From the NCBI GenBank assembly GCA_903828535.1, contig CAIKMN010000003.1, forward strand, positions 1 to 64,000: 64,000 nt of DNA. The letters are read 5' to 3'. Below, one piece after another: positions 1 to 10,905 of this stretch. The stretch is from an uncultured Curvibacter sp. (GTDB lineage: Bacteria > Pseudomonadota > Gammaproteobacteria > Burkholderiales > Burkholderiaceae_C). The number at the start of each line of letters is the position of its first letter. Within the stretch, counting starts at the first letter, position 1. The position numbers and the translations under genes were made by a program. The notes below the pieces were generated by a model. It saw only the letters and a list, made by a program, of their open reading frames with translations. It was not told where the DNA came from and did not search any database.

Positions 1-249
1 CTCGTCGCGCGTCTCAAAAGTCTGGATCGCCAGGTTTGACAACAGCTTTTCTACTTCCCGATCCGTCAGTTTGCTGCCCTCGATTCGGGTGGAAGATCCA
101 ATGCTTTCAATGGTGGCCACCCTGCGCAAGGCAATCAGACGGTCGGGCGCGAGGCTCCCAAGGGCACGCCAGGCACCTTTGAACTCGTCGATCCGAGCAA
201 TCAGGCGCAAAATCTCTGGCGAGATGTGGAAGGTATCGGTGCGGAACAT
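1..249 (-). CDS. Fic-family protein, N-terminal part (runs off the left edge)
   Basis: This is a partial gene: 83 codons from an ATG at 249 read leftwards out of the window with no stop. The residues match the N-terminal region of Fic-domain proteins, which transfer AMP or other nucleotide groups to target proteins. The segment SSTRIEGSKLTDREVEKLL contains STRIEG, which fits the inhibitory-helix motif [S/T]xxxE[G/N] of class II Fic proteins, where the Glu blocks the ATP gamma-phosphate site. The catalytic HPFxxGNG loop would lie outside the window, so activity cannot be judged. A perfect 10-bp tandem repeat lies 11 bases upstream of the start. The gene reads in the same direction as mcrC, 116 bases away. 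Confidence 0.75.
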   Translation of the reverse strand, partial: MFRTDTFHISPEILRLIARIDEFKGAWRALGSLAPDRLIALRRVATIESIGSSTRIEGSKLTDREVEKLLSNLAIQTFETRDE

Positions 250-260
250 GGAACCAATAA

Positions 261-280
261 TACACCCAATTACACCCAAT
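261..280. repeat. Two perfect copies of a 10-bp unit upstream of the Fic gene
   Basis: The unit TACACCCAAT occurs twice in direct tandem immediately upstream of the Fic start codon. Its position suggests a binding site for a regulator, or an accidental duplication; no regulator in the window can be tied to it. Confidence 0.5.
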
Positions 281-365
281 TAGAAGCCCGTATCCCGGCA
301 ATTACAAGGCGAAAATGGGCGTCAATGGGCGCTTTAATGGGATCAGCCTCTTGCCATGTCTTAAA

Positions 366-1745
366 TCAAGCAAGGTGGGTACCTGCGGCAACTATTCGGA
401 CCGCCTTCGCACCCTGCGTCTCTGCCTGCGGTCTATTACAGGAAAACAGCGCGTCGAGACTGCCGCAACGAGGCAAGATGAGCACGCGCTCAACCAAGCA
501 GAATGGCAGCACCCACAGGCGCAGGCCATTGGACTTAGGGAAATCGAACACAGGCAGTGCCTGGTCGAAGGTATCCGTCCTGGGGTAGATTAGCACCACA
601 TCGCCTTCGCCATCGAGGTAGCATTGGCCATAGGCGTGCAGTTGATAAAAGTCGCCTTGATCTAGCCCGTACTTTTTCGAGCCCGTGGATTTCTTGTCAT
701 CGAGCAGCTTCCATTTGGTATCCAGAACCAAGCAGTTCTCGCCCGATTTCTGAACGAGCAAATCCGGCTTTAGGCGAAACCAATCCTGCCCGAGATGGGT
801 GACGAGCGAGAAGCTGCGCGCCTGCGTCTTGAGCGTGAAAGGATGTGCCAGCTGCCACGCTAAATGCTTGGCGACGTACGCCTCGAAAACCGCCTCCATC
901 GGGAAAAGCAGAGAGGGCGCACGATGACCGCCCGCACCAGTTAGCGGTGATTCATCTCCCAGGATCAACCTCGCCCATGCCAGCGCATCAGCGTAGTGCC
1001 CCATGCCACGATCTAGCCGAACCTTGGAGAAGTCCATCTCTGCCTGTTCGGATTCGGGCACATCGGCGAACACGAAGCATAGCTCGCGCGCGAGTTGCTG
1101 GTTCGCCTGCGATGCCGCCCAAGCCAGCGCCCGGCGCAGTGCCGCGTGCAGCAATCGGTTCTCCGGACGATTGGTAGAGAACTCGTCAAACTCCGCAAAG
1201 AACCGATCCCGCCTGCACAAGTTCTGCCGCAGGTGCGTGGCGATCTGCAGCTTGCCGCGCAGCGCGAACACGTTGTCCCGCCTGAAAGCGTAGTCACTGC
1301 GCAGACCTTGTTTGACAATGTGCTCGACGGTGAGCAGGAATTCACCGATGAAGACTTCCAGCAATGGCATGCGCGTGGCCACGAGCTTGGCGCTGTCGGT
1401 CTGGACGTGTCGGAACCCGCCCAGGCATCGCAGCATATCGATCAGCAGTCGACGAGCCTGTGCATCGCCACCGCCGATCGCCTTGCCAACCTTCGGCAGC
1501 ACCTCGATCTGAAAACCGTCTGGCGACCGAATCACGCCGACGAAATTGGTGACCTGGGCGGCACGGTGACCACGCCGCTGCGTAAGGCGCAACCAAGCCG
1601 ACGCGCCGGCCTCGGCCGCCCGCAGCGCTTGCAGTTCCAACCAGTCGAATACGCCGGGCGGCACGACACGTTGACCGCCAACATCCGGCACGCCGGGTGC
1701 TGCTGCCACCAGCGCATCAAACTCGTAGATCGTGATGCCAGACAT
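366..1745 (-). CDS. mcrC: McrC family protein, nuclease subunit of a McrBC-type restriction system
   Basis: The 459-residue product matches the McrC family (PF10117). McrC carries the PD-(D/E)xK nuclease that cuts modified-cytosine DNA when driven by the McrB GTPase. The nuclease core is visible around residues 320-345 as KPDLLV followed by LVLDTKWKLL, giving the expected Asp...Asp-x-Lys set. The N-terminal part has the family pattern of a beta-rich segment (NFVGVIRSPDGFQIEVLPK). The chosen ATG at 1745 lies 16 bases after the mcrB stop; a 43-residue upstream extension overlaps mcrB and is not needed. The gene looks intact, but its partner mcrB is truncated, so the system is probably not functional as encoded here. 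Confidence 0.85.
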   Translation of the reverse strand: MSGITIYEFDALVAAAPGVPDVGGQRVVPPGVFDWLELQALRAAEAGASAWLRLTQRRGHRAAQVTNFVGVIRSPDGFQIEVLPKVGKAIGGGDAQARRLLIDMLRCLGGFRHVQTDSAKLVATRMPLLEVFIGEFLLTVEHIVKQGLRSDYAFRRDNVFALRGKLQIATHLRQNLCRRDRFFAEFDEFSTNRPENRLLHAALRRALAWAASQANQQLARELCFVFADVPESEQAEMDFSKVRLDRGMGHYADALAWARLILGDESPLTGAGGHRAPSLLFPMEAVFEAYVAKHLAWQLAHPFTLKTQARSFSLVTHLGQDWFRLKPDLLVQKSGENCLVLDTKWKLLDDKKSTGSKKYGLDQGDFYQLHAYGQCYLDGEGDVVLIYPRTDTFDQALPVFDFPKSNGLRLWVLPFCLVERVLILPRCGSLDALFSCNRPQAETQGAKAVRIVAAGTHLA

Positions 1746-1761
1746 CAGCACACTTCGGCCG

Positions 1762-2388
1762 TCAGGCCGGTGCCTGGTAGATGCGGATGTAGGCCTCCGG
1801 CCGTGAAAAGGCCGAATCCTGAACACTATAGCGACGTTTAGTGACGTAACTGTCCAACCCATGGTCAGTGCCAAACAGAGCCGTCAGATCCTGCTCGTGG
1901 TCCATGCTCTCGCGGATGAACTGAATCGCAGTGTCGCTCTTCTGGTTGTCCGCCAGCACCAATCGGATCTTTCGCCAATCCTCGAAAAAGTACTCCTCAA
2001 TCAGCGGCACGATGCGGTTGCGGAAGGTCGCAGCAAGCGCCCTGAAACGCAATGGCCCATCTTCCACGCTGGCCAGCCCGGTCAGATAAGCGTGACCGAT
2101 GCCGTGGTCACGGTCAAATAAGGCCTGGATGCGCTCGTTCATTCGAAGCAGCAGTAGCCGAACGTCGATCACGCCGACGTCCGTCGTAACCACCAGCTCG
2201 GCCAGCGGCGCACTGTCTTGGTCGGCAGGGTCTTTCTCGGCACGCGTATCGGGCATCAGGGGCACGAACTCGAAGCGGCGGCGCAGGGCCGTGTCGAGCA
2301 AGGCCAGAGATCGATCCGCCGTGTTCATCGTGCCAATGATGTCCACGTTGGCGGGCACGGAGAATTTCTCGCCCGAATAGGCCAAAGT
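1762..2388 (-). pseudogene. mcrB: mcrB, C-terminal fragment of the AAA+ GTPase
   Basis: About 209 codons at the 3' end of an mcrB gene remain. The fragment begins within the AAA+ core and carries the conserved stretch IIGTMNTADRSLALLDTALRRRF, followed by the arginine-rich lid and the C-terminal helices. The Walker A and B motifs and the DNA-recognition domain that should precede it are absent. Family resemblance stops close to position 2390, which is also where the DUF2924 gene begins on the opposite strand. The sequence on the far side of the cassette, around 4631-4700, does not continue mcrB. I read this as a gene cut by insertion with loss of its 5' part. Confidence 0.8.
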
Positions 2389-2835
2389 GTGACCACCCAA
2401 ATTGCAGCCCTGCCGACGCTCCCGATGGTCGATCTGTGGACGCTGTGGGATGCGCATTTCCCGCGTCGACCCAGCCATCGCAACCGCAGTTACGTCGAAT
2501 CCAGGCTTGCCTACAGGATTCAGGAACGGGCCTACGGCGCACTGCCTACTGCCATGCGCCGCATGCTGGTAGAAGCCGGACCCAAGCACTCCAAGATCAA
2601 GACCCAGATCGGGCAAAGTAGGCGCGGCATCCAAATGCATCTGATGCCAGGCACCACGTTGATCCGCGAGTGGGACGAGCGCCAGCATCGCGTGACGGTC
2701 ACCCGGGATGGTCTGTACGAGATCGACGGTCAGATGTTCAAGAGTCTGTCGGCAGCGGCGCGGCACATCACAGGCACGCAATGGAATGGCCCGAAGTTCT
2801 TTGGACTGCGTGATGACAAGGGGGCTGCCCAATGA
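2389..2835 (+). CDS. DUF2924 family protein
   Basis: The 148-residue product starts at a GTG (2389) and has the DUF2924 layout: an N-terminal TTQIAALPTLP and VDLWTLWDAHF stretch, then SRLAYRIQERAYG, then a C-terminal half with LIREWDERQHRVTVT, and IDGQMFKSLSAAARHITGT resembling a small DNA-binding fold. The reading frame stays open further upstream, but that part is antisense to mcrB and unlike the family. The function of DUF2924 is not established; such genes are often found beside large serine recombinases in phage-like DNA. The stop overlaps the recombinase start by 4 bases (ATGA), pointing to translational coupling. No clear ribosome-binding site precedes the GTG. Confidence 0.75.
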   Translation: MTTQIAALPTLPMVDLWTLWDAHFPRRPSHRNRSYVESRLAYRIQERAYGALPTAMRRMLVEAGPKHSKIKTQIGQSRRGIQMHLMPGTTLIREWDERQHRVTVTRDGLYEIDGQMFKSLSAAARHITGTQWNGPKFFGLRDDKGAAQ

Positions 2836-4181
2836 GCAGAGCCTTGACAACCCCAGCGGTGCCGCCCAAACGCTGCGCGGTCTACTGCCGCGTGTCCAGC
2901 GACGAACGCCTGGACCAGTCCTTCAATTCCATAGACGCTCAAAAAGAAGCTGGCCACGCATTCATCAAAAGCCAGACTCACGAAGGCTGGATCCCGGTGG
3001 CCGACGACTATGAGGACGGAGGATTCTCTGGCGGCAATATGGAGCGACCCGCCCTGCGCCGGTTAATGGCTGACATTGAGGCAGGACGGATCGACATCGT
3101 GGTGGTATACAAGATTGACCGCTTGTCCCGTTCACTGGCGGATTTCGCACGGATGGTGGATGTGTTTGACCGCTGTCGCGTTAGTTTCAGCGCGGTCACC
3201 CAGCAGATCAATTCAGCCACATCGATGGGGCGGTTGATGCTGAACATCCTGCTGTCTTTCGCGCAGTTCGAACGCGAGGTCACAGGCGAACGGATCCGCG
3301 ACAAGATTGCCGCCAGCAAGGCCAAGGGAATATGGATGGGTGGCCCTTTGTCATTGGGCTACGACGTGCGCAACCGCTTGTTGGTAGTCAATGAGGTTGA
3401 AGCTGCATTGGTGCGCCGAATCTTCAATGACTTCGTCACTGTTGGCTCCTCCACGATGATGGCGCGCATCTATGGTGCCGAAGGACTCACGAACAAGGGC
3501 GGCAAACCCTTTGCCAAGCAGATGATCTTCAAGTTGGTTTACAACCGGATGTACTTGGGCGAGATTGTTCACAAGGGGCAAAGCTATCCTGGTCAGCATA
3601 AGGCCATCATTACCCCGGCACAGTGGGATGCCGTGCACGCGCTGATTGCCAAGGATGCGGTGGAGCGTCGGCGAACGACCTACGATCGAGTTAAAGAACC
3701 CGTTCTGCTTCGCGGCCTGTTGTTCATGTCCGATGGCGAACGACTGGTGCCAAGCTACACCATCAAAGATGGCAGCACCTATCGGTACTACACGCCAGTC
3801 ACGCGCAGGCGCTTTGGCGCTTGGGCCAGCAAACATGTCCCGCTGCCAGCAGCGCCAATCGAAGAATTGGTCGTGCAGCAGATCGAGTCGGCATTATCAG
3901 CGCCGCATGTCGTGCAGTCCGTGTGGGATCGCGTACGGGAAATCCAACCAGCTATCACGGAGCCGGAAGTCGTCCTGCCCTTGCGCAGGCTGGCCACGGT
4001 GTGGCAGCAACTGTTTCCAATCGAGCAATGCCGATTGGCGCAATTACTGATCGAGCGCGTCGTGATTGCCAATGACGGACTGGAGGTCATTTGGCGCGAC
4101 CAGGGCTGGCAGAACCTAGCGGGTGAACTGATGCCCGGAGCCATCGGTGCGGAATTGCAGGAACTGGAGGAAGCCGTATGA
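2832..4181 (+). CDS. Large serine recombinase (resolvase/invertase family)
   Basis: The 449-residue product is a large serine recombinase that would catalyse site-specific DNA integration or excision. The catalytic domain covers about residues 15-165: YCRVSS places the nucleophilic Ser at 22 with Arg20, and KIDRLSR near residue 100 is the usual DRLSR motif. A recombinase domain (PF07508-like) follows to about residue 280. The C-terminal region, where many relatives have a Cys4 zinc ribbon, reads LRGLLFMSDGERLVPSYTIKD and has no Cys pairs. The gene overlaps its neighbours on both sides by 4 bases. Its attachment sites are not identifiable here. Confidence 0.88.
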   Translation: MSRALTTPAVPPKRCAVYCRVSSDERLDQSFNSIDAQKEAGHAFIKSQTHEGWIPVADDYEDGGFSGGNMERPALRRLMADIEAGRIDIVVVYKIDRLSRSLADFARMVDVFDRCRVSFSAVTQQINSATSMGRLMLNILLSFAQFEREVTGERIRDKIAASKAKGIWMGGPLSLGYDVRNRLLVVNEVEAALVRRIFNDFVTVGSSTMMARIYGAEGLTNKGGKPFAKQMIFKLVYNRMYLGEIVHKGQSYPGQHKAIITPAQWDAVHALIAKDAVERRRTTYDRVKEPVLLRGLLFMSDGERLVPSYTIKDGSTYRYYTPVTRRRFGAWASKHVPLPAAPIEELVVQQIESALSAPHVVQSVWDRVREIQPAITEPEVVLPLRRLATVWQQLFPIEQCRLAQLLIERVVIANDGLEVIWRDQGWQNLAGELMPGAIGAELQELEEAV

Positions 4182-4630
4182 GGGCGACGATCCATGTAAC
4201 GGGCGCCGCAGTCGCCCGGGAGCGCAAGGATGGCGCTCAGATCAAACTTTCCACCTTCATTCCGCTGAAGATCAAGAAGCGTGGCGGGAGCGCAGTGGTT
4301 GTGCGTCCGAATGGGGACGTGGGGACGCAGGTCCAAGTCGCGTCCCATCATGACCAGCCTCTGCAAGTGGCATTGACTCGCGCGTTCTATTGGCAGCAAC
4401 TGCTCGACGATGGCGTGGTGGCCAGTGGCAGTGACATCGCCAAGCGGGAAGGTTTGCACCACTCCACGGTCAACGAGCTGCTGCGGCTATGCCTGCTGGA
4501 CCCGGAGATTATTCAAACCATCCTCGCGGGGCAGCAGCCGCGTTGCATGAGCCTGTTGTGGTTCCAGCGGAACCCACTGCCGACCGATTGGATGGCGCAG
4601 CGGGAGGTGGTGGCGAGGTTTGATGCCTGA
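4178..4630 (+). CDS. Recombinase-associated HTH protein of unknown function
   Basis: The 150-residue product is coupled to the recombinase by a 4-base ATGA overlap. Its N-terminal half is basic (LKIKKRGGSAVVVRP). The second half contains a helix-turn-helix-like stretch, SDIAKREGLHHSTVNELLRL, then LLDPEIIQTILAGQQP, a pattern common in phage-derived companions of serine recombinases. It could be a directionality or regulatory factor for the recombinase; this is inferred from position and the HTH only. The cassette ends with this gene; the next gene is on the opposite strand 48 bases on. Confidence 0.65.
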   Translation: MRATIHVTGAAVARERKDGAQIKLSTFIPLKIKKRGGSAVVVRPNGDVGTQVQVASHHDQPLQVALTRAFYWQQLLDDGVVASGSDIAKREGLHHSTVNELLRLCLLDPEIIQTILAGQQPRCMSLLWFQRNPLPTDWMAQREVVARFDA

Positions 4631-4678
4631 AATCGCACCGCCTTTGTTCTGGCGAGCTACCAGTTTGAAACAAAACGG

Positions 4679-5044
4679 TCAGTCGGCTGCCTTTGGCAAC
4701 CACTTGATACCGGCGACACCCAAATTGTTCTGGTGAATGTGATCACTGAATAGGGGCACCAAGTTCCGTACATTGCCATCGAAACTGCTTCGCCACATGG
4801 CGTGTAGCTTTTTCAATGCGTTTTCATTTCGGTAAATACTGCCATCCCAGTCGATCACCATCATCGCGACATCACCGTCATCGGCCAATACACACAGCAG
4901 CGCGTCGTCGGCGTCCTTGTTCAGCGAATCTTTGAGCTCTTGTTCGTGGTCAGCCAGTGCTTCAACGTACAGATCAATGCTCAATAGCTTCTGCCCAGTC
5001 AAGGCTGAGTGCAGATCGCTGGCTATTTTCTTTTTGCTTGCCAT
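4679..5044 (-). CDS. Hypothetical acidic protein at the end of the toxin-antitoxin operon
   Basis: The 121-residue product was not recognised. It has a charged N-terminus (MASKKKIASDLHSALTG), an acidic stretch around residues 35-50 (LKDSLNKDADDALL), then a compact region with DGDVAMMVIDWDGSIYRNENALKKL. There is no signal peptide or membrane segment. It follows the small zinc-ribbon gene by 29 bases on the same strand, so it probably shares the promoter at 6128-6157. It may be an immunity-like or accessory factor, but nothing in the sequence shows this. Confidence 0.6.
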   Translation of the reverse strand: MASKKKIASDLHSALTGQKLLSIDLYVEALADHEQELKDSLNKDADDALLCVLADDGDVAMMVIDWDGSIYRNENALKKLHAMWRSSFDGNVRNLVPLFSDHIHQNNLGVAGIKWLPKAAD

Positions 5045-5073
5045 CGGTGTTCAGATTATTGGTCGGCAGGCAT

Positions 5074-5301
5074 TTACCCTGCTTCGATCAGCCGCGCCAC
5101 ATCACTGTGGCATTGAGCACACTTGCCTACCACCAGCAGGTCACCACCTTTGATGGTGCCGCTGAAATTGGTGATCGTAGTTTCGTGGCTGCAATGGCCG
5201 CACCAGACATTGGACAGCAACCGCTGACGGATTTCAGCGGGGATAGATTCCCAGTGCTGGCGCGCAGGCTTGGTGAAAGTCGGCAGTGATTCGATGGGCA
5301 T
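5074..5301 (-). CDS. Small zinc-ribbon protein
   Basis: The 75-residue product contains CGHC and CAQC about 25 residues apart, a pattern expected for one bound zinc ion in a rubredoxin-like ribbon. The segments between them (TTITNFSGTIKGGDLLVVG) are predicted as beta strands. It starts 3 bases after the stop of the GNAT gene, so it is very likely co-transcribed with the toxin-antitoxin pair. The molecular function is unknown; nucleic-acid or protein binding is typical of such ribbons. Confidence 0.65.
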   Translation of the reverse strand: MPIESLPTFTKPARQHWESIPAEIRQRLLSNVWCGHCSHETTITNFSGTIKGGDLLVVGKCAQCHSDVARLIEAG

Positions 5302-5304
5302 GGT

Positions 5305-5805
5305 TCAGCGGACCCAGCGACGGGCGTCCTTCAAGAGCAGCAGCAATTGCTGCTCGCGCAGCGGTGACGCGATGAACCCGAACCGGGTGTAGAACCTCGC
5401 CGCTTCTTCATCGATGGGGTGAGTCAGCATGGCACGGATGCCAGCCTGTTCGGCAATAAGCATCGTGCGGCGAATCGCATCCTGTAGCAGGCCAGAGCCA
5501 ATGCCTCGCCCCTGATCGTGAATTGAAACTGCCAGCCTCGCCAAGATCACCACTGGCAGCGGGTACTGCCCCATCCCCTTGCGGATGCGCTCCGACGCCT
5601 GCAGCGTATCGACTTGGCCCACGGTCAGGCTGAAGTAGCCTGCCACTGGTCCATCATCCTCGACAACGACGAATGTCTTGGCGGAGCCACTGCCCTGGGC
5701 TTGGCGGGCATGGCGCAACAGCCAGTCGTTCAACGCAGGCTTGCCGCAATCAAAGCCCTCAAGCCGATGCTGCGCGGCCAGAGGCTCCGGTGCGCGCAAC
5801 GTCAC
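5305..5805 (-). CDS. GNAT-family acetyltransferase toxin (TacT/AtaT-like)
   Basis: The 166-residue product matches toxins of the GNAT/DUF1778 type, which acetylate the amino group of aminoacyl-tRNA and block translation. It shows HRLEGFDCGKPALNDWL at the start, a long central acetyl-CoA binding region (LARLAVSIHDQGRGIGSGLL), and FYTRFGF near the end, where Tyr139 corresponds to the catalytic Tyr of TacT-type enzymes. The start codon overlaps the antitoxin stop by 4 bases, as is usual in these modules. Which tRNA is modified cannot be told from sequence. Confidence 0.85.
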   Translation of the reverse strand: MTLRAPEPLAAQHRLEGFDCGKPALNDWLLRHARQAQGSGSAKTFVVVEDDGPVAGYFSLTVGQVDTLQASERIRKGMGQYPLPVVILARLAVSIHDQGRGIGSGLLQDAIRRTMLIAEQAGIRAMLTHPIDEEAARFYTRFGFIASPLREQQLLLLLKDARRWVR

Positions 5806-6095
5806 TTTGCGTCCCAGGGGGCCTTGTGGGTAAACAGGTCACGCAAACCCTCATTGGCCTGTTCGGGGCGATCCAGCAGATCCATCAGAGCCTGATACTG
5901 ACTGCCAGAGACCATGAACAATCGTTGATCGAGCAGGGTCTGCTCGGCGGCCACGCACGCGCTGTCAAGAATGAAGTCGGTCAGCGACTTGTGGGCCACC
6001 TCGGCGGCACGACGCAGCACCACCTCCTGTTCAGGGGTGGCGCGCAGACCAAGTCGGGCAGAGCGGGCGGAAGGCGACGATGCAACGGCAGTCAT
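5802..6095 (-). CDS. DUF1778 antitoxin (TacA/AtaR-like)
   Basis: The 97-residue product is a DUF1778 antitoxin. The N-terminal part, SARLGLRATPEQEVVLRRAAE, is the ribbon-helix-helix DNA-binding region, and the C-terminal part, up to FTHKAPWDAK, is the toxin-binding tail. It lies directly before the GNAT toxin with a 4-base overlap. A strong consensus promoter containing an imperfect inverted repeat lies just upstream, which fits the usual conditional autorepression of such operons by the toxin-antitoxin complex. Confidence 0.85.
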   Translation of the reverse strand: MTAVASSPSARSARLGLRATPEQEVVLRRAAEVAHKSLTDFILDSACVAAEQTLLDQRLFMVSGSQYQALMDLLDRPEQANEGLRDLFTHKAPWDAK

Positions 6096-6127
6096 GGCAG
6101 TACCTTTTTTGTTAGATCAATTGGCGT

Positions 6128-6157
6128 AATGTTAGTACAAGAGACGTACATTGTCAA
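6128..6157 (-). promoter_or_regulatory. Promoter and probable operator of the toxin-antitoxin operon
   Basis: On the minus strand TTGACA (6157-6152) is followed after exactly 17 bases by TAACAT (6134-6129), a near-consensus sigma-70 promoter. The spacer holds two GTAC blocks (6135-6138 and 6146-6149), part of a larger imperfect inverted repeat AATGT...ACATT (6128-6152). This arrangement fits a site bound by the ribbon-helix-helix antitoxin. The antitoxin ATG lies 34 bases past the -10 element. Confidence 0.75.
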
Positions 6158-6367
6158 GTTGCAATGGTGACCGGTGTCCTTGGTTGACAACGAACCGGAG
6201 CTCGTAACGTGTTGATTTTGCAGAGCGGCCTTCTGCGCCCACCCGCAGGCCAAACAGAGATAAGAGACAGGTCTGGCGCTATTGGAGGTCAAGTTGGGCC
6301 AGTTTGGCAGGATGGCACCCGCAGTACCGCTGGCCGGAACCCCGCGCCACGCGGGGATTTCAAGCAG

Positions 6368-6396
6368 AAAAAAGGGCCCGGAGATTTTCCGAGCCC
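6368..6396 (-). terminator. Rho-independent terminator of the tmRNA gene
   Basis: On the minus strand GGGCTCGG (6396-6389) pairs with CCGGGCCC (6381-6374) around a 7-base loop, with one G-U pair, and is followed by six T residues (6373-6368). It starts 8 bases after the tmRNA CCA end. Confidence 0.85.
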
Positions 6397-6403
6397 TTGT
6401 GAA

Positions 6404-6780
6404 TGGTGGAGCTGGGGGGAATTGAACCCCCGTCCACAAGTCTTTTTCGTACAGTTCTACATGTGTAGTCGTCTGATTTGGGTCTCGTCTCTTGCGCCGC
6501 GCAGCGACACGCTGTGCAAGAAACCAGCATCCTTAAATCTCATTTGACGCCAAGGTGCCCGGCGCCAAACCAGCCAATGAAAATAACCTCACAGCCTGGA
6601 CGCCTTACGACACCCTTGCCCAGCCCATTGGCCTGCTGTTGTGAGGCTCACCGGTGTTTAAGCGGCGAGTGCGAAACGTTCGTCGTTTGCAGTTAGTTTT
6701 TTTGAATCAGTTTTACGAGCACATTCAGCTCGACATGCCCTGCCACGCGTCCGAACCCATGTCGAAACCAGTGCAGCCCC
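6404..6780 (-). ncRNA. ssrA: Transfer-messenger RNA (tmRNA)
   Basis: This 377-base gene rescues stalled ribosomes together with SmpB. The 5' end reads GGGGCTGCACTGGTTTCGAC and the 3' end GGGGTTCAATTCCCCCCAGC then TCCACCA, forming the tRNA-like domain with an encoded CCA. The tag frame ends in ANDERFALAA followed by TAA at about 6662-6660, the tag seen in many betaproteobacteria. A -10-like TAAAAT sits at 6796-6791, inside the last codons of the upstream gene, with no convincing -35. The island lies directly past the 3' end, which is a known integration target. Confidence 0.95.
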
Positions 6781-6788
6781 AAGAATCG

Positions 6789-7247
6789 TTATTTTAGTCT
6801 GCCCACGCCGAGCTTGGGGGTTTGGCTGTTGTCCACCTTTTGGTTGCAGGCGATTCCCCAGGCCACTTCGATGGCACTTTCTGGGGGCACTTGGTGCCAT
6901 TTGGCGTGGGCATAGGTTTTGTCGGAGACCGTTTTGCCGGTGCCTAAATGGTCGCTGAACAGGGTCAGTGAATTTTGTTTGTAGCGCATGTCCTTGCAGC
7001 TGAACAGGTAATCGCCCGCCAAGGACTGCACTTTCGAGCCCATGGGGTCTTGTTGCGCTTGGAAATAATCCATCATCAGGCTCATCTTGGCGCGGTTGCC
7101 ACTGCGCTCAATGGACTCCATGTCGGCGTAGGAGGCGCTCAGCTGATCGGTTGTGATTCTGGTCCAAGCGGCCATGGCCGCTGGGCTGGCGAAACCGCAG
7201 ACCATTAGGCAAGACAGGAGCAGGGCGCTGAAAAGGCGTTTTTGCAT
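6789..7247 (-). CDS. Exported small protein, surface-adhesin E-like
   Basis: The 152-residue product begins with a signal peptide (MQKRLFSALLLSCLMVCGFA, cleaved near ASPAAMA-A). The mature part has WTRITTD...ADMESIERSGNRAKMSLMMDYFQAQ and a conserved pair of Cys in YLFSCKDMRY and AWGIACNQK that may form a disulfide. Similar small secreted proteins of Burkholderiales are annotated as surface-adhesin E family; the function is not established. The start at 7247 replaces a longer open frame because the signal peptide begins there. Its stop lies 9 bases before the tmRNA 5' end. Confidence 0.7.
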   Translation of the reverse strand: MQKRLFSALLLSCLMVCGFASPAAMAAWTRITTDQLSASYADMESIERSGNRAKMSLMMDYFQAQQDPMGSKVQSLAGDYLFSCKDMRYKQNSLTLFSDHLGTGKTVSDKTYAHAKWHQVPPESAIEVAWGIACNQKVDNSQTPKLGVGRLK

Positions 7248-7267
7248 GGCTTGGGTTCGAAAAAACG

Positions 7268-8071
7268 TCAATTGTTTTTGAACTGGGCAGGGCGCTTGTT
7301 TACAAATGCGTCCATGCCTTCTTTTTGGTCTTGTGTGGCAAACAGCGCATGAAAGAGGCGGCGCTCGAACATGATGCCGTCGGCCAAGCTGCTCTCGAAG
7401 GCCCGGTTGACCGACTCTTTGTTGGCCATCACAGCGATTTGCGACAAGGCACAAATTTGCAGGGCCGCGCCCATGGCTTCATCCATCAATTTGTCCAAGG
7501 GCACCACGCGGCTCACCAAATTGGACCGTTCGGCTTCTTCGGCGTTCATCATGCGGCCGGTCAGGGCCATGTCCATGGCCTTGGATTTACCGACCGCTCT
7601 GGGCAAGCGTTGCGTGCCGCCTGCGCCGGGCATCACGCCAAGCTTGATTTCGGGTTGACCAAATTTGGCATTGTCTGCAGCGATGATGAAGTCGCACATC
7701 ATGGCGAGCTCGCAGCCCCCACCGAGAGCAAAGCCTGAAACGGCGGCAATGACGGGCTTGCGCACGGCTTTGATGCGTTCCCAATTGCGTGTGATGAAGT
7801 CGCCTTTATAGGCGTCCTGGAAAGAATAGGTGGCCATGGCGCCAATGTCGGCGCCTGCGGCAAAGGCTTTTTCGCTGCCGGTGACGATGATGCAGCCGAT
7901 GGCGGGGTCGGCATCGAAGGCCTGCAGGGCGTCGCCGAGCTCGGTCATGAGCTGGTCGTTCAACGCATTCAGTTGTTTGGGGCGGTTGAGGGTCACGATG
8001 CCCACTTTTTCTGCTTCGGTTCGGACCAAAATGGTTTCATAAGTTGGTGCGCTGGGGGTGGCTTGGGTCAT
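7268..8071 (-). CDS. Enoyl-CoA hydratase
   Basis: The 267-residue product is a crotonase-fold enzyme that hydrates 2-enoyl-CoA in fatty-acid or amino-acid breakdown. The oxyanion-hole segment [22 protein letters not shown] (first catalytic Glu) and [22 protein letters not shown] (second catalytic Glu) are all intact, so hydratase activity is expected. The C-terminus has [15 protein letters not shown], typical of the family. It is divergent from the PaaG-like gene, separated by 81 bases that could hold both promoters. Substrate chain length cannot be told from sequence. Confidence 0.9.
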
Positions 8072-8152
8072 GCGTCAAGTCTCTCAGTTAACAGAAGGTG
8101 GTTCACTATACCGAATCTTGCCTTCAAAATAGCAAAAAACAGGAGACCCACT

Positions 8153-9016
8153 ATGAGCACCCCATCCGCCACACCCGCTGCAACCCCGCACAGCACCGCA
8201 GCGTCTGAGCCCACGGTTTTGTATGAAAAGCGCCTGGGAGAGGATCCGTCCGGCCCCGCGGTGGCTTTGCTAACTTTGAACCGCCCGACTTTGTTGAACA
8301 GTTTTTCACCCGCCATGCACGAAGCCATTTGGCAGGCGCTCGATCAAGCCGAGGCCGACCCTTCGGTGCGGGCGGTGGTGATCACCGGCGCCGGTCGGGG
8401 GTTTTGTGCCGGCGCTGACTTGGGCGGTATCAGCTTCACTTCCAAAGAAGAGTTCATGCAAAAGTCCGATCCCGGTCCGATGATTGAGCGTTATTTCAAC
8501 ACCACGGCCCGTCGATTGCAGTCCTTGAAGCGCCCCACTTTGGCGGCCGTGAATGGCGTGGCAGCTGGGGCGGGTATGTCCTTGGTGATGAGCTGTGATG
8601 TGGCGATTGCGTCACCCCAGGCCAGCTTTATTCAGGCGTTCAGCAAAATTGGTTTGATACCAGATGCCGGCAGCACGTGGTTATTGCCTCGCCGCGTGGG
8701 GCTGGCGCGTGCCATGGTCTTGGCCATGACGGGCGACAAGCTGAGCGCTGCCAAAGCCTTGGAATGGGGTTTGTTGTGGGACGTTCAAGAAGACTTTTTA
8801 GGCGCGACCCTGGCCCTGGCGCACCGCTTGGCCGCGATGCCGACCCAAGCGCTGGTGGCCACGCGCCATTTGCTGCGCGATGGCACCGGCGTGGATTTGA
8901 ACACCCAACTGGACGCCGAGCGAGACGCTCAGTCTCGATTGGGCAAAACCAACGACCACTTCGAAGGCGTGGCGGCTTTTCTGCAAAAGCGACCCGCCGT
9001 TTTTAAGGGTCATTGA
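8153..9016 (+). CDS. Enoyl-CoA hydratase/isomerase, PaaG-like
   Basis: The 287-residue product is a crotonase-fold protein close to PaaG, the ring-opening isomerase of aerobic phenylacetate breakdown. FCAGADLGG forms the oxyanion hole. GAGMSLVMSCDVAIA lacks the first hydratase Glu, and FSKIGLIPDAGSTWLLPR carries Asp in place of the second, as in PaaG-type isomerases. An N-terminal Ala/Thr/Ser/Pro-rich stretch of about 20 residues precedes the fold. The ATG at 8153 follows AGGAGA by 6 bases, a good ribosome-binding site. No other phenylacetate genes are nearby, so the pathway is uncertain. Its stop overlaps the convergent M61 peptidase gene by 7 bases. Confidence 0.85.
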   Translation: MSTPSATPAATPHSTAASEPTVLYEKRLGEDPSGPAVALLTLNRPTLLNSFSPAMHEAIWQALDQAEADPSVRAVVITGAGRGFCAGADLGGISFTSKEEFMQKSDPGPMIERYFNTTARRLQSLKRPTLAAVNGVAAGAGMSLVMSCDVAIASPQASFIQAFSKIGLIPDAGSTWLLPRRVGLARAMVLAMTGDKLSAAKALEWGLLWDVQEDFLGATLALAHRLAAMPTQALVATRHLLRDGTGVDLNTQLDAERDAQSRLGKTNDHFEGVAAFLQKRPAVFKGH

Positions 9017-10905
9017 CCCTCAGTGACTTTTAGTGAACCTTGGCTTTGGGTCCAGGTGGCCATTTTGGCCGCGTCGGCCATTGCCAAGCGCACGGTGTTG
9101 ACCGTGGGCAGTCCCAAGGGCAGGCGCAACACCTGCTGGTCGCGAGCCACCCAAGCCACCCCTTTTTTGGCGGTGCCCATGTAGAGCGGCAAGTCTTCGA
9201 GCTGGTTCAACCGCCAAATTTTGGGGTTTTTTTTTGGGCCCACTTCGATGGCCAACCACTCGTCACCAGCGGCCATGCCGGCCTTTTCTGCTGCCCCACC
9301 GCGCAGCACCGATTTGAGACGCAGCGGGCTGCCGCTTTCCAGGCGCAAGCCCAAGCGTTGGGCCATTTGAGCAGGGTCTTCGTGCCAAACGATGCCGTGC
9401 TTTTCGAGCAAGGCCTTCAAAGGCAAGTCGGTCTTGCCGTGCACCCAGGCTTTGATTTCTTTGGCAAAAGAGCGGCCGCCCAGCTCGCTCAACACAGCGG
9501 CAAAGTCGGCCTCTGTGAGGGGGCCGCCGTCGACTGTTCCGGCCTTTGTGCGCTGCCAAAGGTGGCGCATGACTTGGTCTAAATGGGTCTTGCCTTCAGC
9601 CCGCAGGAGGAGGTCAAAGCACAGCGCCACCAAGGCCCCTTTGGTGTAGTAGCTGATGGTGGCGTTGGGGGTGTTTTCATCTTGGCGGTAGTACTTCACC
9701 CAAGCGTCAAAACTGGCCTCTGCCACGCTTTGCACCAAACGGCCGGGGGCTTGTAAAACTTGGTTCAGGGTTTTGTTGAGCAGCTTCAAATACGCGGCGT
9801 CGTCCAGCAAACTAGCGCGGCGCAACAACAAGTCGTCGTAGTAGCTGGTGAAGCCTTCAAAGAACCACAAGAGCTCGGTGTAATTTTCTTGGCTGTAGTC
9901 GTAGCGGGCGAATGCTTGCGGGCGCAGGCGTTTGACGTTCCAGCTGTGAAAGTATTCATGGCTGATCAAGCCCAGCAAGGTGTTGTAGCCTTCGGGTTGG
10001 CGCTTGGAGCCCAAGCCATCCGCCAGGCGAGGCAGGTCACGGCGGCCACAAATCAGCGCGGTGCTGGCGCGGTGTTCAAGGCCACCGTAGTTGTCGTCCA
10101 CCGCATTGAGCAGAAAAAGATAATTTTTAAAAGGCGGCGGGTTGACCTGTCCTTGGTCTGGGCCCTTTGTTGGCGTCCCTTCAGCCAGAGAGGGGTGCCA
10201 AAAACGGAGGGCGGTTTCGCAAATTTTTTGAGCGTCCGCCAGCAAACGGGCGCCGTCAAAAGAGGCGCTGGCCCCTGCCACGACAAAGCGATGTGGCACG
10301 CCGTGCGCTTCAAAAGCGCCTTCCCAAAAGTCACCCAGCTCGAAAGGTGAGTCGGCCAACTCGTCGTAATCAGCGGCCAGGTAAAGACCAAAACCACGCC
10401 GATCGACCTGGCGAGCGGGCAATGCCGTGGCGACGCGCCAAGGCATTTGAGGGGCCAGCAGGCGCAAGGCGTGCGGCCATTCCGTTTGGCCGTCCACGCG
10501 CAGGCACAAACTCGTGGCATTGAAAAAGCCACGTTGACTGTCTAGCCAGGCGGTGCGGACGGAGGCGTCATGGGCATAAATCTGGTAACGAATCACCAGC
10601 GGCACCTGCGGCTTGGCATCAACCACCCAAGTGCATTTATCGAGTTGTTCAAAGCGCACGGAGCGGCCGTTTTGTTGGGCGCTGAATCCCTGCAGGTTTT
10701 TGGAAAATTCACGCACCAAGTAGCTGCCCGGAATCCAAACCGGCAAGCTCAGCATTTGTTTGGCCTGGGGAGAAGAAACGGTCAGCGTGACGTCATAGAG
10801 ATGGGCTTCAAATTGGTCGCAATCAATTTGAAATTCAGGGCCACTGCGGGGGGCATCGTGTGGCTTTTTAACGGATTCGTTTTGGGATTCTTTTTTTGAG
10901 GCCAT
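9010..10905 (-). CDS. M61 family metallopeptidase with PDZ domain
   Basis: The 631-residue product resembles M61 glycyl aminopeptidases. It shows an N-terminal beta-rich domain (WIPGSYLVREFSKNLQGF), GGLEHR before the active site, the zinc motif SHEYFHSWNVKRLRP (HEYFH) with the downstream Glu in WFFEGFTSYY, and a C-terminal PDZ-like domain (SPLRLKSVLRGGAAEKAGMAAGDEW). No signal peptide is seen at the chosen ATG (10905), which begins with a Lys/Glu-rich stretch. An upstream in-frame extension overlaps the DUF3429 gene in another frame and is rejected. It is last in a four-gene operon with ubiH-like, dsbC and DUF3429 genes. Confidence 0.88.
   Translation of the reverse strand: MASKKESQNESVKKPHDAPRSGPEFQIDCDQFEAHLYDVTLTVSSPQAKQMLSLPVWIPGSYLVREFSKNLQGFSAQQNGRSVRFEQLDKCTWVVDAKPQVPLVIRYQIYAHDASVRTAWLDSQRGFFNATSLCLRVDGQTEWPHALRLLAPQMPWRVATALPARQVDRRGFGLYLAADYDELADSPFELGDFWEGAFEAHGVPHRFVVAGASASFDGARLLADAQKICETALRFWHPSLAEGTPTKGPDQGQVNPPPFKNYLFLLNAVDDNYGGLEHRASTALICGRRDLPRLADGLGSKRQPEGYNTLLGLISHEYFHSWNVKRLRPQAFARYDYSQENYTELLWFFEGFTSYYDDLLLRRASLLDDAAYLKLLNKTLNQVLQAPGRLVQSVAEASFDAWVKYYRQDENTPNATISYYTKGALVALCFDLLLRAEGKTHLDQVMRHLWQRTKAGTVDGGPLTEADFAAVLSELGGRSFAKEIKAWVHGKTDLPLKALLEKHGIVWHEDPAQMAQRLGLRLESGSPLRLKSVLRGGAAEKAGMAAGDEWLAIEVGPKKNPKIWRLNQLEDLPLYMGTAKKGVAWVARDQQVLRLPLGLPTVNTVRLAMADAAKMATWTQSQGSLKVTEGQ

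Follow-up and report, generated by a model that had tools for sequence, protein, structure and literature searches.

The window analysed here comprises 64,000 nucleotides from an uncultured Curvibacter sp. (assembly GCA_903828535.1, contig CAIKMN010000003.1, here contig C3) and carries a truncated mcrBC restriction locus directly beside a DUF2924 gene and a large serine recombinase gene. We conclude, with a probability of about 0.83, that this region is the ssrA end of a genomic island in which one deletion cut both the 5′ end of the DUF2924 gene and mcrB up to codon ~641, which would have left McrBC inactive and the recombinase operon possibly silenced. A single junction truncates both genes, DUF2924 and the recombinase belong to a module family found at ssrA, the corresponding site of a congener is free of the island, and relatives retain the undeleted layout. 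The host assembly is a 2.34 Mb draft of 36 contigs, rated near-complete (99.99%), and window position 1 is the first base of contig C3.

mcrB and the DUF2924 gene are truncated at one junction

The mcrC gene (366–1745, minus strand) is complete, as the initial annotation had stated: its product matches PF10117 over profile positions 2–318 of 318 (Pfam, E 3.8e-98), is the sole match to this family in the host genome and is 88% identical to that of locus L011. The same annotation had assigned about 209 codons to mcrB, and the remnant (1762–2388, minus strand) indeed consists of the last 208 codons and the stop codon, encoding the end of the AAA+ domain and the C-terminus with 88.5% identity to codons 642–849 of mcrB in L011, where McrB has 849 residues. 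The remnant starts downstream of Walker A and lacks this nucleotide-binding part of the AAA+ domain; Pfam AAA_5 is matched at profile positions 100–139 of 139 only, below the cut-off, and the N-terminal DNA-recognition part of McrB is absent from the window. DNA similarity to other mcrBC loci stops at 2382 (L231), 2384 (L011) or 2388 (L047), and similarity to DUF2924 genes starts at about 2389–2404 on the other strand, where the gene can start at GTG 2389. The coincidence of the two borders noted initially is thereby borne out, and we place the deletion junction at 2382–2399.

The part of McrB that matches the remnant is present in 42 of 43 related mcrC loci; L051, which has no McrB, was excluded from the following counts (n = 42). 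The McrB frame extends at least 229 codons past the break point in 41 of these loci, the exception being L037, which starts at a contig edge. A Walker A motif is found in 39; of the three loci without one, L037 is again the contig-edge case, the contig of L028 ends ahead of the motif, and L013 carries a 5′-truncated mcrB of its own. All 12 other McrC loci found among 399 genomes of the family have McrB on both sides of the break, with a McrC identity to the window of 88% for one locus and 38–74% for the others. McrB frames are not all whole in relatives (L027 is interrupted, and the first ~35 codons of L231 lie in another frame), and the same short form occurs in none of the 42 related and 12 family loci. 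This alignment to related loci, which the initial annotation had proposed as a check, confirms the break; the tmRNA site of a congener, free of the island, is described below.

No mcrB sequence lies on the far side of the recombinase genes in the window, where none of the missing 641 codons was found, in agreement with the initial annotation. The proposed search for a separate mcrB, with these 641 codons as query, gave no match at E 0.01 or better in the assembled genome, a result obtained with no positive control; since the island is incompletely assembled, the missing 5′ part might sit in an assembly gap. A plasmid search with window positions 1–6400 gave no match, and a distant search with 2380–5300 returned partial matches of 60–80% only, in 12 records.

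The DUF2924 gene (2389–2835, plus strand; PF11149, E 2.8e-43) is itself clipped, as comparison of 5′ ends shows. Its counterparts in relatives have 5 to 11 or more additional codons at the start; these are missing from the window, as are the ribosome-binding site and the upstream DNA. GTG 2389 is a possible new start codon, at a position that holds valine or isoleucine in most close relatives. The sequence turns into mcrB at 2382–2399 and nothing of the usual DUF2924 leader remains. The sharp cut described earlier for this border stands for mcrB, with the correction that DUF2924 is truncated at its own 5′ end as well. Because the first gene of the module is clipped too, the junction is, on sequence comparison, a deletion scar rather than an insertion point. 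Its exact base cannot be fixed with the parent sequences not at hand; a 22-mer spanning the junction had no match in viral contigs, which are not where a copy would be expected.

The leader that the window has lost is conserved elsewhere. With one mismatch allowed, 60 of 77 relatives (for example L090, L097 and L174) have a DNA element in front of the DUF2924 operon, CTTGGCTTC ... CAGCGCGTTCAT .. AACCC, no more than 150 bases upstream. Shuffled stretches show it in 2 of 78 cases, and stretches from 850–1000 bases upstream in 3 of 77, the latter control including the window and omitting one relative. The element is kept even where protein identity to the window drops to about 50%, and it may be an operator, a leader or a recombination site. 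L084, L187 and L203 are devoid of it, and an open frame there ends right before the DUF2924 start. A match to the pattern counted in the window was taken as chance, the DNA there being derived from mcrB.

The locus lies at the ssrA end of a genomic island

The tmRNA gene ssrA (6404–6780, minus strand; identified by ARAGORN, tag ANDERFALAA) is the integration gene of the island. Over 6404–10169 the window shares 94% identity with a congener, G204, and this identity starts at the tmRNA end; beyond it, the 3.2 kb up to the G204 contig end hold a different gene and no island. This flank of G204 is found in the host genome at C19:1087–4252 with 93% identity, and therefore C3:1–6403 and C19:1–1086 are inserted DNA. 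Foreign DNA thus starts at the tmRNA 3′ end, and the congener has the same site without the island: the window holds an ssrA-integrated island. When 131 bases spanning the tmRNA 3′ end were searched against the host genome, the only matches other than the site itself were of 21 and 15 bases.

Between the junction and ssrA lie three genes on the plus strand: the DUF2924 gene, a gene for a large serine recombinase of 449 aa (2832–4181) and a gene for a small helix-turn-helix (HTH)-like protein (4178–4630), for which a ParB-HTH match remains below the cut-off. The recombinase matches PF00239 (131.5 bits) and PF07508 (47.3 bits), both above the cut-off, and a zinc ribbon (16.4 bits) below it; the nearest NCBIfam model is CcrB, with 136 bits against a cut-off of 900. 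We collected 78 module stretches from (i) relatives of the recombinase by family search and (ii) relatives of DUF2924 by order search, and dropped L217, which has no DUF2924, to give n = 77. These 78 stretches do not represent all places detected: from the 34 found through the recombinase and the 71 found through DUF2924, weak, partial and contig-edge places as well as the window were mostly left out. Of the 77 relatives, 75 keep the order DUF2924–recombinase–third gene on the same strand, the other two being L086, cut off at a contig edge, and L177, in which we detected no third gene.

A full tmRNA gene is present in 26 of the 77 module stretches; it lies downstream and convergent in 24, the arrangement of the window, and upstream in 2. 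Chance would place one in about 0.5% of 19 kb stretches (an estimate assuming one tmRNA per ~3.5 Mb genome). The DUF2924, recombinase and HTH-like genes (2389–4630) are, as judged from this gene order, the tmRNA-proximal integration module of the island and not a cassette in mcrB. The separate recombinase cassette of the initial annotation is thus not retained.

Other RNA genes occur near the module in some stretches, and further stretches show no RNA gene at all at the distances covered. The 77 stretches contain 22 tRNA genes (7 tRNA-Ala, 9 tRNA-Phe and 6 others), five of them in one cluster in L185, compared with about 20 expected by chance, as estimated from ~50 tRNA genes per 3.5 Mb and a summed stretch length of 1.39 Mb. 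A tRNA-Ala gene lies in the fetched stretches of L102, L174, L176, L181, L190, L204 and L216, and a tRNA-Phe gene in those of L185, L189, L193, L195, L205, L215, L100, L186 and L192. With 16 of 22 belonging to two kinds and a total at about chance level, tRNA-Ala and tRNA-Phe are possibly branch-specific attachment genes. In L098, which shows no tmRNA gene, a segment matching 33/35 bases of the tmRNA 3′ end lies ~2,970 bases downstream of where DUF2924 starts, the placement to be expected for an attachment repeat. L084, L092, L187 and L199 share a composite tmRNA-like 35-mer 3.0–4.2 kb downstream of DUF2924, where tmRNA is expected. It differs by one base near its end in L084, matches the tmRNA end of the window at 22–23 of 35 bases, hardly above background, and is possibly a variant of the attachment site.

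Relatives retain the undeleted layout

In L047 (Plasticicumulans acidivorans) the DUF2924–recombinase pair and an intact mcrBC are divergently oriented; 4.1 kb separates the positions that correspond to the two sides of the break, and McrB has 847 residues including Walker A. Contig G562:C10 shows the order mcrC< mcrB< ... DUF2924> recombinase> third gene> tmRNA<, with a McrB of 837 residues and 12.9 kb between the break positions; an interval of ~11 kb there encodes a ResIII-family protein, a DNA methylase and others. L024 (a metagenome-assembled genome of Sulfuricellaceae) has the same sequence as G562:C10 where compared. Given these undeleted layouts in L047 and G562:C10, the window would be the remainder after one such deletion. 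G562:C10 is also a tandem island array: two modules of different branches (L170, L234) lie ~22 kb apart on either side of mcrBC.

Other islands are broken at other points. In L088 (10535–11533) a cargo open reading frame is fused in frame to DUF2924 to give an open frame of 332 residues, the recombinase is short of about 60 internal residues and the third gene is frame-broken. L217 lacks DUF2924 together with the N-terminal 180 aa of the recombinase, and keeps the third gene with tmRNA nearby. In L013 (4253–5989) McrB homology begins near codon 405, past the Walker A position, in an in-frame fusion to the start of an unrelated protein that we take to be ParB-like; this stretch gave no DUF2924 or recombinase match and a weak third-gene-like match at its far edge. 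L051 (5335–7608) retains only the last ~120 mcrC codons, followed by a Fic-like gene, ~590 bases after a tRNA-Ala gene. The varying end points in L088, L217, L013 and L051 point to erosion at varying positions rather than at a preferred site. Site-specific breakage at the DUF2924 start, which was considered because L088 also breaks nearby, was rejected, since the break falls within the recombinase gene in L217 and at another point of mcrB in L013.

Age and function of the mcrB remnant

Window-specific changes were counted with three references as 12 silent and 4 amino-acid changes in the remnant and 40 and 8 in mcrC (Fisher p 0.48). With two references the counts are 18/5 in the remnant and 46/8 in mcrC, and with the other pair 16/4 and 46/12. 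The substitution counts lend no support to a long-standing pseudogene. From the lack of decay it follows that the deletion happened recently, as measured against the divergence from the nearest relatives, or that the pieces are still used, and we regard a recent deletion as far more likely than continued use.

McrC cuts only together with the GTPase ring of McrB, and because of this requirement the McrBC locus should be inactive. The remnant has neither the Walker A part nor the N-terminal half found in most relatives, and the assembled genome offers no second mcrB 5′ part. McrBC is most likely dead here, with a probable loss of restriction, which accords with the disarmed restriction system that the initial annotation had put forward.

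Proposed history and alternative explanations

In the history that we propose, an island would have been integrated at ssrA with a module of DUF2924, large serine recombinase and small HTH-like protein and with cargo including a divergent mcrBC. A later single deletion by illegitimate recombination would have removed the DNA from the 5′ end of DUF2924 through mcrB codon ~641. McrB would thereby have lost its N-terminal DNA-binding half and its nucleotide-binding part, and mcrC its upstream gene and presumably its promoter, leaving the restriction system inactive. The module would have lost its usual start codon and leader, which may have silenced the recombinase operon and immobilized the island.

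Several observations weigh against this history. No repeat of the tmRNA 3′ end was found at the far end of the island (C19:1–8000), the best match of 19/35 bases being at background level; given this lack of a repeat on the C19 side, the far boundary may be worn or differently built. The middle of the island is unseen, C3 and C19 both ending inside it. The direct parent is not at hand: the nearest mcrBC loci (L011 and L231) are only 86–87% identical in DNA, and the fetched stretches around them yielded no module gene, so that a recombination between two islands retains some probability. Among the module stretches, 51 of 77 show no full tmRNA gene, some of them ending at contig edges. The mcrB remnant, finally, shows no decay in the substitution counts given above.

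Of the alternatives, the one we rate highest, and still consider unlikely, is that two islands recombined end to end, joining the module of one to the cargo of the other with no single ancestor that held both. In its favour, G562:C10 holds two modules about 22 kb apart, and mcrBC and the module have their closest relatives in separate genomes; against this, L047 and G562 show the arrangement undeleted, with order and orientation as in the window, so that an internal deletion needs fewer steps. We give distinctly less weight to the jump of a serine recombinase module into mcrB as a cassette, with later loss of the distal half of mcrB. The junction does fall at the first usable DUF2924 codon and the recombinase is of a mobile-element type, yet an insertion would not be expected to remove the module's own 5′ end and leader, no mcrB sequence continues across the module, and the module adjoins tmRNA in 26 of 77 relatives.

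A chimeric assembly of two unrelated fragments is equally improbable: the 36-contig draft, with C3 and C19 both ending inside the island, would allow for it, but the orientation of cargo and module agrees with independent genomes, and similarly clipped modules occur in others. We assign the lowest probability to a functional reduced system of McrC and the C-terminal McrB piece, or to regulation of McrC by this piece, a role that the initial annotation had left open and for which we find no support. Both frames are open, amino-acid change in the remnant is not significantly faster than in mcrC, and L013 provides another open-frame 5′-truncated McrB. L013, however, breaks elsewhere and keeps 235 more codons, none of the 42 related and 12 family loci has the same short form, and the established dependence of McrC on the McrB GTPase ring is contrary to such a role. 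An internal deletion at the ssrA end of the island accordingly remains our preferred explanation.

Further cargo genes and the far end of the island

The interval between the module and tmRNA contains a small gene (4679–5044, minus strand) with equally placed homologues in L088 (74%) and L217 (80%), followed by a GNAT acetyltransferase and TacA1-like antitoxin pair (5305–6095, minus strand; PF13508 and PF08681), which is of toxin–antitoxin type by family. This pair is 93–95% identical in two other islands (L085:7389–8176 and L187:11243–12030), a closer relationship than that of the respective recombinases (78 and 81%).

At the other side, adjoining mcrC, the N-terminal part of a gene that we take to be Fic-like from its sequence pattern (1–249, minus strand) ends at the contig end. 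Over 83 aa it shares 79.5% identity with an open frame of 349 aa after the mcrC fragment in L051, and PADLOC, the sole database searched with this piece, gives no match. The far end of the same island is C19:1–1086 of the host genome (G000; L159), in which a 67-residue open frame ends just before the chromosomal flank. This frame has no Pfam match and presumably resembles a Fic C-terminus. A connection of C3 and C19 through one Fic gene was considered and dropped, as the Fic-like protein of L051 matches the window piece only and not C19.

Discussion

Compared with the McrBC type IV restriction system of the E. coli K-12 type, the window has McrC and the C-terminal end of McrB in the usual order, with a McrB that lacks the nucleotide-binding part and the N-terminal half. 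Of the SCC cassette recombinases CcrA/B/C, CcrB and CcrC supply the curated NCBIfam models closest to the recombinase of the window; the latter scores far below their cut-offs and has a different target gene.

Among the literature matches listed, the ssrA islands of Dehalococcoides are the closest described system. They are inserted at the ssrA 3′ end with a serine-recombinase module at one end, carry diverse cargo, form tandem arrays, have a sharp border between module and cargo, and are marked at the far end by a 20 bp ssrA repeat (PMC3146451). The island of the window and its relatives share with them the ssrA 3′ end, a conserved serine-recombinase module at one end, diverse cargo, tandem arrays and the sharp border. 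The Dehalococcoides Dsi module consists of six genes, namely two recombinases, RecF-like, ParB-like and Mom-like genes and a gene for a large protein (PMC3146451), whereas the module described here has three genes with one recombinase, and the far-end ssrA repeat was not found in its island. The literature matches for DUF2924 all concern Wolbachia. In phage WO of Wolbachia, DUF2924 stands beside a large serine recombinase (PMC11376236) or beside a recombinase (PMC10299305). WO has this pair in common with the window; it is a prophage with structural genes and not an island with defence cargo at tmRNA.

We tentatively propose, as a possibility to which we give somewhat less than even odds, that the modules define a new island family across the bacterial order: a three-gene module with a RAMA-like DUF2924 and a conserved element in front would target the 3′ ends of RNA genes (tmRNA, and perhaps tRNA-Phe and tRNA-Ala elsewhere) and carry defence genes such as McrBC, DUF2924 would set the direction or timing of the recombinase, and 5′ clipping would lock the island in place. 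These odds take into account that the number of tRNA genes near modules is about that expected by chance and that their restriction mostly to two kinds is only suggestive. DUF2924 has been partly equated with the RAMA DNA-binding domain in Wolbachia (PMC11342252). No title among the further literature matches listed names the three-gene module, and we do not claim that it is unpublished.

The sharp edge of mcrB marks where a deletion would have stopped and not where an element inserted; when a DUF2924–recombinase pair adjoins a truncated gene, an island integration module is the first reading to consider. The truncated locus represents ordinary island decay rather than a new kind of system, and the module family is the part worth following: if confirmed, it would add serine-recombinase islands of Proteobacteria at RNA genes to those already described.

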